NCBI GenBank assembly: GCA_021157445.1
Contig: JAGGWM010000122.1
Location: forward strand, 1 to 7,816
Direction: 5' to 3'
From: Thermococcus sp.
Lineage (GTDB): Archaea > Methanobacteriota_B > Thermococci > Thermococcales > Thermococcaceae
Length of the DNA: 7,816 nt
A program made the position numbers and the translations under genes. The first letter of the stretch is position 1; the number at the start of each line of letters is the position of its first letter. Positions 937 to 6,809 of this stretch are shown here, one piece after another. The notes under the pieces were generated by a model. It was not told the origin of the DNA and did not search any database. It worked only from the letters and a program-made list of their open reading frames with translations.

Positions 937-989
937 CTTATCGTTATAAGCTTGCTTGGATTGTTTCAAAACTTGTAAAACAATCCAAG
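937..989 (-). repeat. Perfect 12-bp inverted repeat over the mlaD stop codon, plus a small stem before tmk
   Basis: Positions 955-966 (CTTGGATTGTTT) are the exact reverse complement of 978-989, with an 11-nt loop. In mlaD mRNA this would form a 12-bp stem containing the last codons and the stop (968-966). A second small stem, CTTAT/ATAAG with a 4-nt loop (937-950), follows just before the weak tmk ribosome site. On the minus strand the sequence after the large stem is CAAGCTTATAACG, with no T tract, so it is not a standard intrinsic terminator. It could be a processing or stability element separating mlaEFD from tmk-holB, or could tune tmk translation. That role is inference. Confidence 0.6.
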
Positions 990-2258
990 AGAATCCCTTA
1001 CATCTGAATCTCTTTCTTGATGTTTAAAAAACAATCCCCAATCTTCGTCCAGAGCATATTTGCCCTCTACAGAGAAACTACCACCTGCTTCGTCCCACCA
1101 TTCCGAGCTTATCACGAAATTACCCGTGGAGAAATTAGGGTTATAAGATAGTCCAAAACCAAAATAGTCATTTATAGCCCCAGAAACAAATCTCCAATTT
1201 CCATAGTCATATCCCACAACCCCTGTAAATCCGGGTTCATCACCTATATTTGCCATCCCCATAACTAAAGAGTATGGAGATCCTACCTTGCTCAAGCGAA
1301 CATAAGTATCAAATATGGGATCTTTCCTATCCAAATCCTCATGTAGATATAAATCTCCTTCAAGATTTATAGATTCTATAAAAGAAAGGGTTTTATTTGC
1401 CCTATCCGCTAACTCAGACAATTTTTTCAAGTTTAAGCCGCTATCTGAGTTATTATCATTTAAACCTAAGACAAATTCTTTTATTGAAATCGCCATCTCT
1501 TGTGTAGATTCTGCAGCTTCCTTAATTTTTAGGACAGTCTGCCTTATATCTCTTCCTGCCTTTCTATCGTTATCAAAGTCAGAGACTATAAAATTCAATC
1601 TTCTAGATAACTCTTCAACATTCTTAACAAGCTTTGCAACATCCTCCTTATTCTCTTCTACCATCATATTCATATTCACAGATAACTCCTCAAAAGAGTT
1701 AGCCGCTTCTCCCACAGAACTAGCAGCATTGATAATTGCAGGTTTGGCCTCTTTTATAAAGCTATCCATATTATCTGCCGCCTGCGAAAGGTTCTCTAAA
1801 AAATTGTTTACCTTTAAAAATGTTGCTTTTATATCTCCAAGTCCTTCCTCTATATCTTCAAGTATTTCATCAAAGGACGGAGGCAAAACTCCTCTTACTC
1901 TAACTCCAGGTTGTAATAATTTTTTGGAAGTTCCCCTTATTATTTTTACCCTAGGCTCCCCTAATAACCCTCCAGTATCTATAGTAAATTTACTATCTAC
2001 AGGCACTGGCACTTCCTCTTTCAGGCCCACTCTAACTAATACTCCTCTATCCAATAATTTCATTGCATTCACTTGACCAGATTCTATTCCTGAGACCAAA
2101 ACTGGCGAGCCAATGTTCAACCCCATGGCATCTTCGAACACTATATCTAGCTGGTATCCACTTTCTCCAAAACGTAAGCCCCCACTAAAAGACACTAACA
2201 CACCAAGCAAGATTATCGCCATAAGAGCAAAAGTTCCTATTTTTATCTCTCTGGTCAT
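966..2258 (-). CDS. mlaD: MCE-family lipid transport protein MlaD, long form with C-terminal outer-membrane-type beta domain
   Basis: This is the lipid-conducting partner of an MlaEF ABC transporter, 430 residues against about 180 in E. coli MlaD. Seen in order: a transmembrane helix at about 7-24; an MCE domain at about 34-108, including GYQLDIVFEDAMGLNIGSPV and the GGLLGEPRVKI segment (96-106); LPPSFDEILEDI (125-136), then a long Ser/Asn/Glu-rich helical section to about 297; and finally a beta-rich segment (298-430) full of alternating aromatic strands. It ends in SLGLFYKF, which fits the polar-x-Gly-x-x-aromatic-x-aromatic signal recognised by the BAM machinery. It therefore probably spans from inner to outer membrane. 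The start at ATG 2258 is chosen for GGAGGAG (2272-2266) 7 nt upstream and an ATGA overlap with the mlaF stop; the frame extends upstream to 2333, inside mlaF. The MCE assignment is firm. The barrel is inferred from strand pattern and the terminal signature. Confidence 0.93.
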   Translation of the reverse strand: MTREIKIGTFALMAIILLGVLVSFSGGLRFGESGYQLDIVFEDAMGLNIGSPVLVSGIESGQVNAMKLLDRGVLVRVGLKEEVPVPVDSKFTIDTGGLLGEPRVKIIRGTSKKLLQPGVRVRGVLPPSFDEILEDIEEGLGDIKATFLKVNNFLENLSQAADNMDSFIKEAKPAIINAASSVGEAANSFEELSVNMNMMVEENKEDVAKLVKNVEELSRRLNFIVSDFDNDRKAGRDIRQTVLKIKEAAESTQEMAISIKEFVLGLNDNNSDSGLNLKKLSELADRANKTLSFIESINLEGDLYLHEDLDRKDPIFDTYVRLSKVGSPYSLVMGMANIGDEPGFTGVVGYDYGNWRFVSGAINDYFGFGLSYNPNFSTGNFVISSEWWDEAGGSFSVEGKYALDEDWGLFFKHQERDSDVRDSLGLFYKF

Positions 2259-3022
2259 AGTAATTCTCCTCCACGCACTGAAACAAGCCCCGACGAAAAA
2301 CGCTTTACCTCCGTGTTGCTCGTTTCCCTCCACTCTTCACAAGTTCCACGCCAAACAACTCGTCCATTTTCCATCAAAACTAATCTGTCAGCTATGCCTA
2401 GTGCTGACACCATGTCGTGGGTTACAACTAAAACTGCTACTCCAAACTTCCTACACAAATTTACAATCAAGGCATCTATATGTCTTGCAGTCAAGGGATC
2501 CAATCCAGTTGTAGGTTCATCTAACAACAAAACCTCCGGTTCGTGAACTAAGGCTCTTGCTATCGCAACTCGCTTCCTCATGCCACCGGAAAGCTCAGAG
2601 GGGTACAAATTACTTACATTTCCTAGTTCTACATGTTTTAATATTTCCTTCGTCTTCTCTTCTATAGTTTCCCTATCCGCTATTCCTTTACAATACTTTA
2701 ACGGAAATGCAATATTTTCCCCTACAGTTAAGGAGTCAAACAAAGCTCCACCTTGAAAAACCACACCTAGTCTCTTCCTAAAAGCAGTTATTTCCCTTTC
2801 ATCTGTAGCAGATGTTATCTGAGCCTCAAAAAACTTAATTCGTCCCTTTTGTATCTTCTGCAAGCCAGCAACAACCCTGAGTGTCGTAGTCTTACCACAC
2901 CCAGAGGGCCCTAATATACACTTCACCTCTCCCATGCTTAAAGATAAGTTTACTTCTTTTAATGCTCTCTTTTCTCCAAAAAACACTGATACTTCTTCAA
3001 GCATTACGATGGGAGTACTCAA
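2255..3022 (-). CDS. mlaF: ABC transporter ATP-binding protein MlaF (phospholipid transport)
   Basis: This cytoplasmic ATPase drives the MlaE permease. With the TTG start at 3022 it is 255 residues, normal for the family. Seen: Walker A GPSGCGKT (38-45), Q-loop VFQGGALFDSLTV (88-100, with the GALFDSLTV stretch typical of the Mkl/MlaF subfamily), signature LSGGM (144-148) followed by RKRVAIARAL, Walker B VLLLDEP (164-170) and the switch His in VTHD (H202). All catalytic residues are present. The TTG start (3022-3020) forms a TTGA overlap with the mlaE stop, has GGGGGGA (3036-3030) upstream, and gives MSTPIVMLEEVSVFFG, which resembles usual MlaF N termini. Alternatives are ATG 3004 (lacking six residues, no clear ribosome site) and an ATG at 3091 that would overlap mlaE by 73 bp. 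The 4-bp overlaps at both ends indicate translational coupling with mlaE and mlaD. Confidence 0.95.
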   Translation of the reverse strand: MSTPIVMLEEVSVFFGEKRALKEVNLSLSMGEVKCILGPSGCGKTTTLRVVAGLQKIQKGRIKFFEAQITSATDEREITAFRKRLGVVFQGGALFDSLTVGENIAFPLKYCKGIADRETIEEKTKEILKHVELGNVSNLYPSELSGGMRKRVAIARALVHEPEVLLLDEPTTGLDPLTARHIDALIVNLCRKFGVAVLVVTHDMVSALGIADRLVLMENGRVVWRGTCEEWRETSNTEVKRFSSGLVSVRGGELL

Positions 3023-3798
3023 CCAGTTATCCCCCCAAACAGAAGGCTTGAAAGGATATAGTTCGTGGCTAATATCAGCATATTGCTCCACACAACGGCT
3101 CTCGTAGTAGCCACTCCTACTCCTTTAGCCCCTTGTCCTGCTCTGAACCCCTGAGTGCAAGCAGAAGTAGCTATCAAGAGTCCAAACACAGCAGCCTTAA
3201 AAATCCCCCCCCATATATCGTAGGGATCCAAAAGAACTTCCAAAGATTTCTTAAAAATATGAGAGTTTACACCATGAGATAATACATACAAAAAAGCTCC
3301 CCCTATACCTATAAAATCTGAAAAGATAGTCAAAGCTGGTAACATTATAAAACTCGCTAGCAACCTTGGTGCACCAACAAAGACCACGTCATCTAAACCG
3401 AAGGCCTTAAGGGCATCTAATTGCTCAGTGACTTTCATGGAACTTATTTCTGCAGCCATTGACGCTCCTACTCTTCCGCTAACCACCAATCCTGTAAGCA
3501 CCGGTGAAAGCTCCCTCGTTATACTTAAACCTATTACGCCTCCTATATAACCAGTTGCCCCAAACTTTATAAATTGATCTATAGTTTGAACCGCAATGAC
3601 CATTCCAGTAAAAGCGCTTGTGATAGCTACCATAAATACTGAGCTAACACCTATACGCTCCATTTGCTCCGAAAAATCCTGCAAACTCCAGGTCTTTGAA
3701 ACTAGCCCACTTATGATTTTGAAGAAAATAATAAAAAATACGCCGAGGCTTTCAACCGTTACTATAATCTCGTGCCCCAGCCAACTGATAAACTGCAA
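3019..3798 (-). CDS. mlaE: ABC transporter permease MlaE (phospholipid transport)
   Basis: This is the inner-membrane permease of the Mla system, expected to work as a dimer with MlaF and an MlaD hexamer. The protein is 259 residues, as usual for the family. Seen: an N-terminal amphipathic/hydrophobic stretch (about 8-30), FTGMVIAVQ (63-71), then the highly conserved core RELSPVLT (95-102), GRVGASMAAE (108-117), and KVTEQLDAL (122-130), followed by PRLLAS. Further hydrophobic segments lie at about 146-172, 200-213 and 236-256. No ATG suits the 5' end. TTG 3798 is chosen because GGAAGGGGG (3814-3806) lies 7 nt upstream. An in-frame TTG at 3819 would add seven residues but has no ribosome site. 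It lies 30 bp after the S55 gene and overlaps mlaF by 4 bp (TTGA). The family call is secure; only the start is uncertain. Confidence 0.94.
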   Translation of the reverse strand: MQFISWLGHEIIVTVESLGVFFIIFFKIISGLVSKTWSLQDFSEQMERIGVSSVFMVAITSAFTGMVIAVQTIDQFIKFGATGYIGGVIGLSITRELSPVLTGLVVSGRVGASMAAEISSMKVTEQLDALKAFGLDDVVFVGAPRLLASFIMLPALTIFSDFIGIGGAFLYVLSHGVNSHIFKKSLEVLLDPYDIWGGIFKAAVFGLLIATSACTQGFRAGQGAKGVGVATTRAVVWSNMLILATNYILSSLLFGGITG

Positions 3799-3828
3799 AC
3801 CTCGGCCCCCTTCCAGCAAAGCAAAAAT

Positions 3829-5598
3829 CTAATTATTTCTTTGCTTACCTGATACCTTGACCAACTTCCTCAAAAGACCATCTACGTAATAATTGGATTT
3901 ATAAACTTTCAAAAGCCCCTTTTCCATCTTTTCCTTTTTTATTTCACTTAAAAGCCTTTTATCCTGCTCCTCTGCTTTCGCTTCCCATGGGGCCCTATTG
4001 GGTGATCCATCATATCTAAGTTCTACAACAAGCTCATTATTAGCTTCCATGGAATCCAACTCACGCAAGAGTTCCTTTAAATCCGTAATGGCCCTCCAGC
4101 CTTGCAATAACGACTCCTGAGAAGGTTCTTCTATACCTCCACCTCTTACCACTACTTCGTAAGTTCCTACAGCATCTTCAGGCATATTTAATACGAATTT
4201 CTTTTCTACTGCTCTTCCTCTGAACGGGCGCATTTTTACAGTTATCTCAAAAGGTTCACCTGGTTTTAAAGGCTCTTTTGGCACAGTCAACCCTTCTATG
4301 AGGAGAATTCTAGGTTCTTGCGTTACTTCTACATCGATATGAACTCCGAAAGGATTTATCTCATAATAAGGGTTTAACATGATAGCTTTAGTAATATCTA
4401 TGGCCTCAGAGAACATGTCCTTTCCCAAATCCTTATCTGAATAAAAGATGTTTGATCTCCTCCAACCATCAACCAGAGATCTACCTTCTATTTCCAGGTC
4501 AACTTTTGCTGTCCCTTCTCCTTTCCTCTCCCAAATATTATCCCATAATCCAACTAAAATGTTATCAAGAAGATTACTTAAGAGAAAAGGGTCGTTAACG
4601 AATTGAAACCGTTTCTTGACAACCTTACCGGTATCTTTGTCTTTCATACTGAGGGAGAAATCAAACGCTGGAGGAATCTTTCCCAAATATCCCCCAATAG
4701 CCTGAGGCCTGTCCTGCGTTACTACACCTACAATTTCGGTGGGAGTTCCTATTTTAAAAGGGGCCTCTAGGCTCGGTATAACATCATGTATCCAAGCTTT
4801 TGCTACAGGATAATAAACGGCACCACGGTTCAAAAATGGATGAGCAAAAGCCAGGAAACGTCCGTCGGTAGATAAAGCTGTTAATGTTCCTGTAGCCGCA
4901 ATGGAGACATCTCCCCAAGCTAATAGAACACTAACAGCATCTCCCGGAATGAGTTTTGCATTTAGGTTAACTGGTAAAGAAGAAACATTAAAAGAGCCTG
5001 GCAACATGGAGTAGCTGACATTTAGCTTTTGGCCTATCCCACTAGCACCACGATCACTGAGTCCATATATAGTCATGGGGGTCGACAGATTACCCGCTTT
5101 TTTAGCGTTGCTTTCTTTTTTTTCATCACTGCTTTCAATAGATATTTTAATTGGTCCCTTCAACTCGACAGCTCTATCAGGCCAGTTCCAAATTGATGCC
5201 ATTTCAGATATAGGGGTCACAAGCCCTTTGTTATGTTCGCTGAAATGCCAACCATACCCTATAGCGCCAACAAGTTTACCGTTTATGAAAACAGGACTTC
5301 CACTCATCCCTGCAGCAATTCCCCCTGTTTTTTCTATGACTGGGCCATAGGCTTGAATTAGTATCAATTTGTGCGGCAAGTCAGCTGATGGCAGCACGCT
5401 TAAAACTTTCACAGGAAATGTAACTACCTTTTGACCTTTAATGACCGTGTAGGCAACTCCTTCCATGCCTGCCTTAATATCTTCAACGGGCATCACTGGA
5501 ACCTTTGAGTTGAATATTTTTGGCTGTGCAAAAGATGGTGACGAACAAAAGATAATAAGCAGCAGAGAGATCAAGATCCTTAATAGAAACCTATCCAT
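3829..5598 (-). CDS. Exported SpoIVB-like peptidase S55 domain protein
   Basis: This is a secreted protein of 589 residues. Seen: a signal peptide (MDRFLLRI, a hydrophobic core to about 17, then SPSFA at 20-24 before Gln25), with likely cleavage near 24/25. The lobe at about 35-135 holds TGGIAAGMSGSP (91-102) and NGKLVGAIGYG, matching the serine lobe of SpoIVB; Ser99 is the likely nucleophile. A linker rich in Glu/Lys/Ser follows at about 150-170. A second lobe (about 200-320) contains GTLTAL..DGRFLAFAHPF with His253, resembling SpoIVB's histidine lobe. The remainder has a beta-sandwich-like region (about 425-490, including LKPGEPFEITV) and a charged tail. Relative to SpoIVB the two lobes are in reverse order. 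ATG 5598 is chosen for GGAGGA (5611-5606), 7 nt upstream, and for the signal peptide; a longer frame from 5631 would add 11 residues. It is 34 bp after prfB and 30 bp before mlaE. Proteolytic activity and substrate are unknown. Confidence 0.85.
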   Translation of the reverse strand: MDRFLLRILISLLLIIFCSSPSFAQPKIFNSKVPVMPVEDIKAGMEGVAYTVIKGQKVVTFPVKVLSVLPSADLPHKLILIQAYGPVIEKTGGIAAGMSGSPVFINGKLVGAIGYGWHFSEHNKGLVTPISEMASIWNWPDRAVELKGPIKISIESSDEKKESNAKKAGNLSTPMTIYGLSDRGASGIGQKLNVSYSMLPGSFNVSSLPVNLNAKLIPGDAVSVLLAWGDVSIAATGTLTALSTDGRFLAFAHPFLNRGAVYYPVAKAWIHDVIPSLEAPFKIGTPTEIVGVVTQDRPQAIGGYLGKIPPAFDFSLSMKDKDTGKVVKKRFQFVNDPFLLSNLLDNILVGLWDNIWERKGEGTAKVDLEIEGRSLVDGWRRSNIFYSDKDLGKDMFSEAIDITKAIMLNPYYEINPFGVHIDVEVTQEPRILLIEGLTVPKEPLKPGEPFEITVKMRPFRGRAVEKKFVLNMPEDAVGTYEVVVRGGGIEEPSQESLLQGWRAITDLKELLRELDSMEANNELVVELRYDGSPNRAPWEAKAEEQDKRLLSEIKKEKMEKGLLKVYKSNYYVDGLLRKLVKVSGKQRNN

Positions 5599-5632: not shown

Positions 5633-6752
5633 CTAGTCTTCTTTCACTTTGTTGCTTCTCTTTCGCCTTTTCAACTCTGCGAAAATAAAATCATCTAAAT
5701 CCCCATCTATTACAGCTTGAATATTGCCCTTTTCCAGCCCGGTACGATGGTCTTTTACCAAAGTGTAAGGGTGAAAAACATAGGAACGTATTTGGCTCCC
5801 CCAACCTATCTCCTTTTTCTCTCCTTGGATTTGTTCAAGCTGTTCCTGTCTTTCCTGCAACATCCGTTCATACAAACGGCTCTTCAACACTTTCATTGCC
5901 ACTTGCCTATTCATGTGCTGAGATCTCTCATTCTGGCAGCTAACCACTATCCCTGTAGGTATATGAGTTATTCTAACCGCAGAATCTGTCATATTAACAT
6001 ATTGTCCTCCCGCTCCCCCGGCCCTAAAGGTATCTATTTTTAAATCTTCAGGGTTGATATTAATCTCCACGTCCTCCGGGAGCTCTGGAGAAACGTTAAT
6101 TGAAGCAAAACTAGTATGTCTTCTTTTTGCCGTGTCAAAAGGTGAAATCCTTACAAGCCTATGGACACCTCTCTCGCATTTCAGGAATCCATAAGCAAAG
6201 GAGCCAAAAACATGAAAGGTTACAGATTTTATCCCTGCTTCCTCCCCTTGAGTTATTTCAAGGATTTTAGTTTTAAATCCCTTGTTTTCAGACCATCTAA
6301 GGTACATTCTATAAAGGATTTCTGCCCAATCTTGAGAATCAAGCCCACCTGCTCCAGGATGAATGCTAACTATTGCATTAGAATCATCATATTCCTCGTC
6401 AAGCAACAGCATAACTTGTTCCTCGTCTATCCTCTTGTTAAGCTTTTCTGCTCTTTCGTAAAACTCTCTCTCTAAAGCTTCATCTTGTTCCATTGTCAAT
6501 AACTCAGCTATGGTCTCCAAATCTTTGAACTCATTCATCATCTCTTGCCATTTGTTATAACGATCCTGGAGCAAAGCCAACTTTTTAGTTAGTTCCTGAG
6601 CATCATCTCTGTCCCAGAATCCTTGTTCTGTTGTTTTATCGGTAATTTTTTCTATTTCTGCTTTCAACGAATTCGGGTCAAAGGCTGTCCTGCAGCTCTA
6701 TTACCGAAGAGCGCAGTTCCTCCAATATTGTAGATATAGGCAGCAGTGTCAT
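5633..6752 (-). CDS. prfB: Peptide chain release factor 2, full length via programmed +1 frameshift
   Basis: RF2 ends translation at UGA and UAA codons. The gene is split: a 24-codon leader frame (ATG 6752 to TGA 6678) ends in CTT TGA C. A +1 shift there continues as Asp-Pro-Asn-Ser-Leu into the main frame to the TAG at 5635-5633, giving 372 residues, the usual RF2 length. Seen: an N-terminal helical domain; SIHPGAGGLDSQDW (129-142); the stop-recognition tripeptide SPF (203-205), which marks RF2 and not RF1 (PxT); the catalytic GGQ (248-250) in FRAGGAGGQYVNMTDSA; and a conserved C-terminal VKDHRTG. The leader start has a strong AAGGAGGAG (6766-6758), 5 nt upstream. Annotating only from the TTG at 6667 would lose 28 residues. 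Expression is probably autoregulated: low RF2 slows UGA termination and favours the shift. It heads the minus-strand gene run and is divergent from birA. Confidence 0.97.
6677..6691 (-). promoter_or_regulatory. prfB programmed +1 frameshift site
   Basis: The slippery CTTTGAC (6683-6677) contains the in-frame TGA (6680-6678) after a CTT Leu codon, identical to the classic prfB site. An SD-like AGGA (6691-6688) lies 4 nt before CTT. In E. coli the stimulator is a stronger AGGGGG about 3 nt before CTT, so this stimulator is weak. The frames before and after join only by skipping the T at 6680, and both sides encode typical RF2 sequence. Confidence 0.95.
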
Positions 6753-6779: not shown

Positions 6780-6809
6780 ATTATATAATGTGTCTTGTTC
6801 TTATGTGAC
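6780..6809 (-). promoter_or_regulatory. Candidate promoter for the prfB-S55-mlaEFD-tmk-holB run
   Basis: On the minus strand a perfect -10 TATAAT (6785-6780) follows an imperfect -35 GTCACA (6809-6804, 4 of 6 matches to TTGACA) with an 18-bp spacer. Transcription would start near 6773, leaving a leader of about 20 nt that contains the prfB ribosome site. The -10 lies in the palindrome CATTATATAATG (6779-6790). The call rests on consensus matching only. Confidence 0.5.

Follow-up and report, generated by a model that had tools for sequence, protein, structure and literature searches.

The DNA considered here (the window, meaning the whole stretch of 7,816 bases, deposited as Thermococcus sp.) carries on its minus strand the genes mlaE, mlaF and mlaD of a phospholipid transporter, the last of which (966..2258) encodes a long MlaD of 430 residues with one MCE domain and a predicted C-terminal β-barrel. 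We consider it probable, at about 0.78, that this MlaD bridges both membranes and replaces MlaC and MlaA in an MlaE-MlaF transporter, the barrel being a prediction from structural models. If so, lipids would likely be moved without the separate carrier proteins used by E. coli. The system is of the design known from Veillonella parvula, now found in another phylum, the Synergistota, and its occurrence there, densely sampled within one phylum, extends the published idea that most diderms move phospholipids by a three-part transporter with an envelope-spanning MlaD.

Predicted architecture of the long MlaD

The mlaD gene starts at the ATG at 2256-2258, a start chosen from a ribosome-binding site (GGAGGAG, seven bases upstream), from the starts of homologues and from the way in which it shares the sequence ATGA with the stop codon of mlaF. 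A GTG-started frame of 455 residues in the list of open reading frames is simply the longest reading. The length of 430 residues given in an earlier note on this DNA therefore stands, residues 298-430 lying at 969-1367 and followed by the stop codon. From its N-terminus, the protein comprises a predicted transmembrane helix (residues 3-26; 2181..2252), found in the AlphaFold2 model and hydrophobic by eye in those homologues that have this part, a single stretch of MCE domain (residues 35-109; 1932..2156; Pfam PF02470, 53.1 bits against a cut-off of 25.1), an amphipathic helical section (residues 129-295; 1374..1874) and, formed by the last 134 residues (297-430; 969..1370), a predicted ten-stranded outer-membrane β-barrel, all encoded on the minus strand. 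The helical section appears in two AlphaFold2 models and its helical hydrophobic moment exceeds that of shuffled sequences; 146 of its residues are in helix, which corresponds to some 22 nm when fully extended, its shape being unsure at a block confidence (pLDDT) of 36-64 in the better model. A Pfam match of this section to Bacillus_HBL (20.4 bits, cut-off 29.1) was rejected as generic helix similarity.

The two models, built from 17 and 24 aligned sequences, each place ten strands in the C-terminal domain, from residues 297-308 to residues 419-429, the block pLDDT from residue 291 onward being 58-83 for the 17-sequence model and 64-87 for the one built from 24. The earlier note had read alternating residues in eight to nine strands; the alternation was recovered (0.794 in the predicted strands versus 0.494 +/- 0.116 in shuffles of the domain, p 0.008, a measure that is partly circular as the strand borders derive from the model), and the strand count is corrected to ten. 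Neither a match to Pfam (domain alone, E up to 10) nor, in a protein search with residues 292-430, anything other than near relatives was found. The Thermovirga lienii MlaD is 70% identical. A fold search with the better model, which re-aligns only Foldseek's own candidates, returned outer-membrane barrels (omptins, OpcA) as its best matches; a first search with the 17-sequence model, which gave TM-scores of 0.22-0.31 by target length to outer-membrane barrels among its best 14 matches, is not relied upon. The predicted monomer is thus of the outer-membrane type, with no sign of a β-sandwich. It is improbable that the domain is instead a soluble ten-stranded lipid-binding barrel of the nitrobindin or lipocalin type, collecting lipids in the periplasm and lying outside the outer membrane: the lipid-facing girdle was judged from sequence, by the composition of the strand faces, and this composition, like the fold matches, points to an outer-membrane barrel. 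Weak matches in a viral structure library, several of them to entries annotated as outer-membrane barrels, were not used as evidence.

The domain ends in SLGLFYKF (969..992, minus strand), which the earlier note had taken for a signal recognized by the β-barrel assembly machinery (BAM) and which fits the β-signal pattern. Across the Synergistota, 29 of 30 complete MlaD frames end in GxxYxF and 28 also fit a stricter β-signal consensus; in the thirtieth (L085), two further residues come after GVFYQF. These frames come from 29 genomes, some of them close kin, out of 32 mlaD loci in 31 genomes; the two incomplete frames either run off the contig (L046) or stop early near a contig end (L063). G425, Y428 and F430 are invariant in the MlaD alignment, and the motif is kept even in a deep clade (G117-G120) whose MlaD is 22-26% identical to that of the window over the best aligned stretch. 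In view of these sequences, the terminal motif is not a matter of coincidence. We note that the early stop in L063 (genome G125, contig C41) falls inside the barrel region and may represent a sequencing error or decay.

Origin of the contig and distribution of Mla in Synergistota

All 7,816 bases of the window align without a gap, at 99.35% identity, to a 271,765-base contig of Thermovirga sp. GB_MAG10_013 (G115), Thermovirga being a heat-loving bacterium of the Synergistota. The bin in which the window was deposited (as contig C59) comprises 1,160,150 bases, is 61.37% complete and appears to be archaeal. Its neighbouring contig C58, the single diagnostic contig among the few sampled from this bin, encodes a TgtA-like tRNA-guanine transglycosylase with TGT_C1, TGT_C2 and PUA domains together with NurA, Rad50 and Mre11, which we take to be an archaeal gene set, and neither PF02470 (0/114) nor a match to the PrfB of the window (0/60) was found in other genomes of the phylum to which the bin is assigned, as would be unexpected for a bacterial phylum. 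This archaeal character of the bin is also what might suggest an assembly artefact, such as a chimeric contig within it. The gap-free alignment to the Thermovirga contig and the recurrence of the same gene order in other genomes make such an artefact hardly credible and refute it for the gene itself, the binning alone being wrong; on the alignment, the window is Synergistota DNA that was mis-binned. The question of MlaA and MlaC therefore belongs to the Synergistota, and a search of the bin itself, in which neither was found, was set aside as meaningless.

PF02470 was detected in 31 of the 185 genomes of the Synergistota, a set that coincides fully with the genomes in which MlaE was found. MlaA and MlaC were each found in 0/185 by profile-level searches that matched E. 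coli and Caulobacter among 14 control genomes, so that the complete mlaA/mlaC set that would have spoken against a bridge did not appear. Likewise, as the earlier note had stated, no mlaA, mlaB or mlaC adjoins the operon among the seven frames of the window scanned with Pfam, a scan that left out one birA-like frame. LpxC was found in 166/185 genomes, namely in 30 of the 31 with mla genes and in 136 of the 154 without, some misses being expected as some of the genomes are small or fragmented. Loss of lipopolysaccharide (LPS) consequently does not explain the missing Mla. In PMC10665443, the absence of Mla is ascribed mainly to LPS loss or atypical envelopes, with mention of some LPS-bearing phyla that lack it; in the Synergistota, the contrast lies inside one phylum and at one locus. 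The phylum provides a natural comparison, MlaD and MlaE being detectable in 31 genomes and undetected in the other 154, with LpxC in most of either group, and what the barrel bridge is needed for becomes testable among relatives. One of the 31 genomes (G127) has two mla loci of related type (L060 on contig C53 and L092 on contig C15) and is possibly a mixed bin.

Proposed mechanism and comparison with known systems

The closest counterpart is the MlaD of V. parvula, which the earlier note had named correctly. As described in PMC10665443, that protein has 419 residues with a transmembrane helix, an MCE domain, approximately 150 residues in helices and a barrel predicted to have ten strands, and its system consists of MlaEFD only, without MlaA and MlaC. 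The window protein is alike in size, in its transmembrane helix, single MCE domain, long helices and (predicted) ten-stranded C-terminal barrel, and in the grouping of mlaE, mlaF and mlaD in the absence of MlaA or MlaC. The two differ in phylum (Synergistota here, Negativicutes there), in that 154/185 Synergistota genomes show neither MlaD nor MlaE, and in genomic setting, the window operon lying between prfB plus an S55-peptidase-like gene and tmk and that of V. parvula directly upstream of tolC and tamB. They also differ in the nature of the evidence: the isolated V. parvula barrel ran with an outer-membrane control in sucrose gradients (PMC10665443), and the design here is predicted from sequence and models. 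The same study inferred a barrel in 103 MlaD sequences spread widely over diderm Terrabacteria and regards the MlaD bridge as ancestral. The earlier note's proposal of the same ancestral-type bridge finds support in the window, the bridge itself still being a prediction and our data bearing on ancestry only within the Synergistota. Nowhere in the main text of PMC10665443, whose supplement may list members of the phylum, is the stem "Synergist" used, and no other publication on MlaD or Mla of Synergistota or Thermovirga was among the matches listed.

Other MCE systems are more distant. E. coli MlaD is short, as the earlier note had it, with 183 residues and no barrel (PMC10665443), and the six-component type to which it belongs (MlaA to MlaF) includes an MlaC chaperone and an MlaA lipoprotein, neither of which was found in the Synergistota genomes. 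Mce1 of Mycobacterium smegmatis (8fed, 8fef), among the best profile and fold matches, shares the MCE domain and a long helical needle; its six distinct chains, however, give one strand each to a shared six-stranded barrel (PMC9882608). The window MlaD, in contrast, has ten predicted strands per chain, which is not the arrangement of an Mce1-type portal. PqiB and LetB, which are likewise periplasm-spanning MCE proteins, are not known to have a barrel. They carry several MCE domains per chain (PMC10665443), as opposed to one in the window MlaD.

Solved MCE proteins suggest, by analogy, that MlaD would be a hexameric ring seated on MlaE at the inner membrane. The amphipathic helices of the six chains would come together as a hydrophobic tunnel spanning the periplasm, and the barrels, once folded by the BAM machinery and inserted, would fix the distal end to the outer membrane. 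A barrel of ten strands leaves too little room for a lipid, so the phospholipid would have to gain access to the tunnel at the foot of the barrels and would be moved at the expense of ATP spent by MlaF, likely from the outer to the inner membrane, the direction proposed for V. parvula (PMC10665443). The same narrowness could mean that the barrel is only an outer-membrane anchor or envelope tether, lipids bypassing MlaD or requiring other partners. PMC10665443 leaves the role of the barrel open and describes most long MlaDs as barrel-free, and the many Synergistota genomes without MlaD are also compatible with a mere tether. We nevertheless regard this alternative as unlikely, since MlaD shares an operon with the core of an ATP-binding cassette (ABC) transporter, is present or absent together with MlaE throughout the phylum, and has helices that are amphipathic, as MCE tunnels would need. 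A bridge that itself conducts lipids accordingly remains the reading that we prefer.

The mla locus with and without mlaEFD

The genes mlaE, mlaF and mlaD follow one another in this order on a single strand in 32/32 mla loci read. The S55-like gene lies upstream of mlaE in 31 of them, the exception being L049 (G120), whose contig starts inside mlaE and where S55 adjoins the other piece of mlaE on contig C92. Downstream tmk was found in 25/32 loci and prfB in 24/32, some of the remaining loci stopping at contig edges; neither is near mla in G117, G118 and G119, where 10-17 kb were read, and G116 and G120 are on short contigs. A relative of the S55-like protein occurs in 169/185 Synergistota genomes (E up to 0.001), including all 31 with mla genes, and served to find the corresponding place in genomes without them. 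Twenty loci from the 154 such genomes were read, hand-picked from the S55 matches rather than sampled at random, and prfB precedes S55 in all 20. In 12 of these (L065-L071, L075, L077-L079, L084), the order prfB-S55-tmk is closed up, with tmk at most 65 bases after S55; five (L074, L076, L081, L082, L083) have no tmk near S55, L076 ending 607 bases past it; and three (L072, L073, L080) carry after S55 a 1.5-kb insert whose gene, oriented oppositely, is aminopeptidase-like. The insert protein of L073 and L080 is 39% identical to a Pfam M18 protein of L048, and that of L072 is 94% identical to that of L073. Given its aminopeptidase-like gene, the insert was rejected as a replacement lipid transporter in the empty mla site.

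In four loci of the deep mla-positive clade (L045, L047, L048 and L049), mlaD is followed by a related aminopeptidase-like gene, likewise oppositely oriented. That this gene follows mlaD where mla is present and S55 where it is missing suggests, from gene order, that mlaEFD was lost by deletion and not gained by insertion. Trees of PrfB (44 loci) and S55 (48 loci, after omission of two S55 frames shorter than 450 residues and of the second G127 locus) each require at least two changes between presence and absence of mla. Both are quick unrooted trees, the S55 tree joins a long branch (L050) to the deep clade, and the preference for loss over gain is accordingly inferential. A tentative scenario, to which we give slightly less than even odds, is that the ancestor of the Synergistota had the barrel bridge and that most of the phylum later lost mlaEFD from a fixed place yet kept lipid A synthesis. 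An LPS-bearing diderm could thus drop its MCE lipid route, another system, perhaps with the retained S55-like neighbour, substituting for it.

The window itself shows the full arrangement, with prfB (5633-6667), the S55-peptidase-like gene (3829..5598; Pfam PF05580, 48.1 bits; start signal-peptide-like by eye), the permease gene mlaE (3019..3819; Pfam MlaE, 236.9 bits), the ABC ATPase gene mlaF (2255..3091 as listed, its true start probably lying further in; Pfam ABC_tran, 122.7 bits), mlaD, tmk (296-919) and the start of a holB-like gene cut by the window edge (1-324; Pfam DNA_pol3_delta2, 26.5 bits, just below the cut-off of 27) in this order on the minus strand. A frame starting at 6790 on the plus strand was named birA-like by eye.
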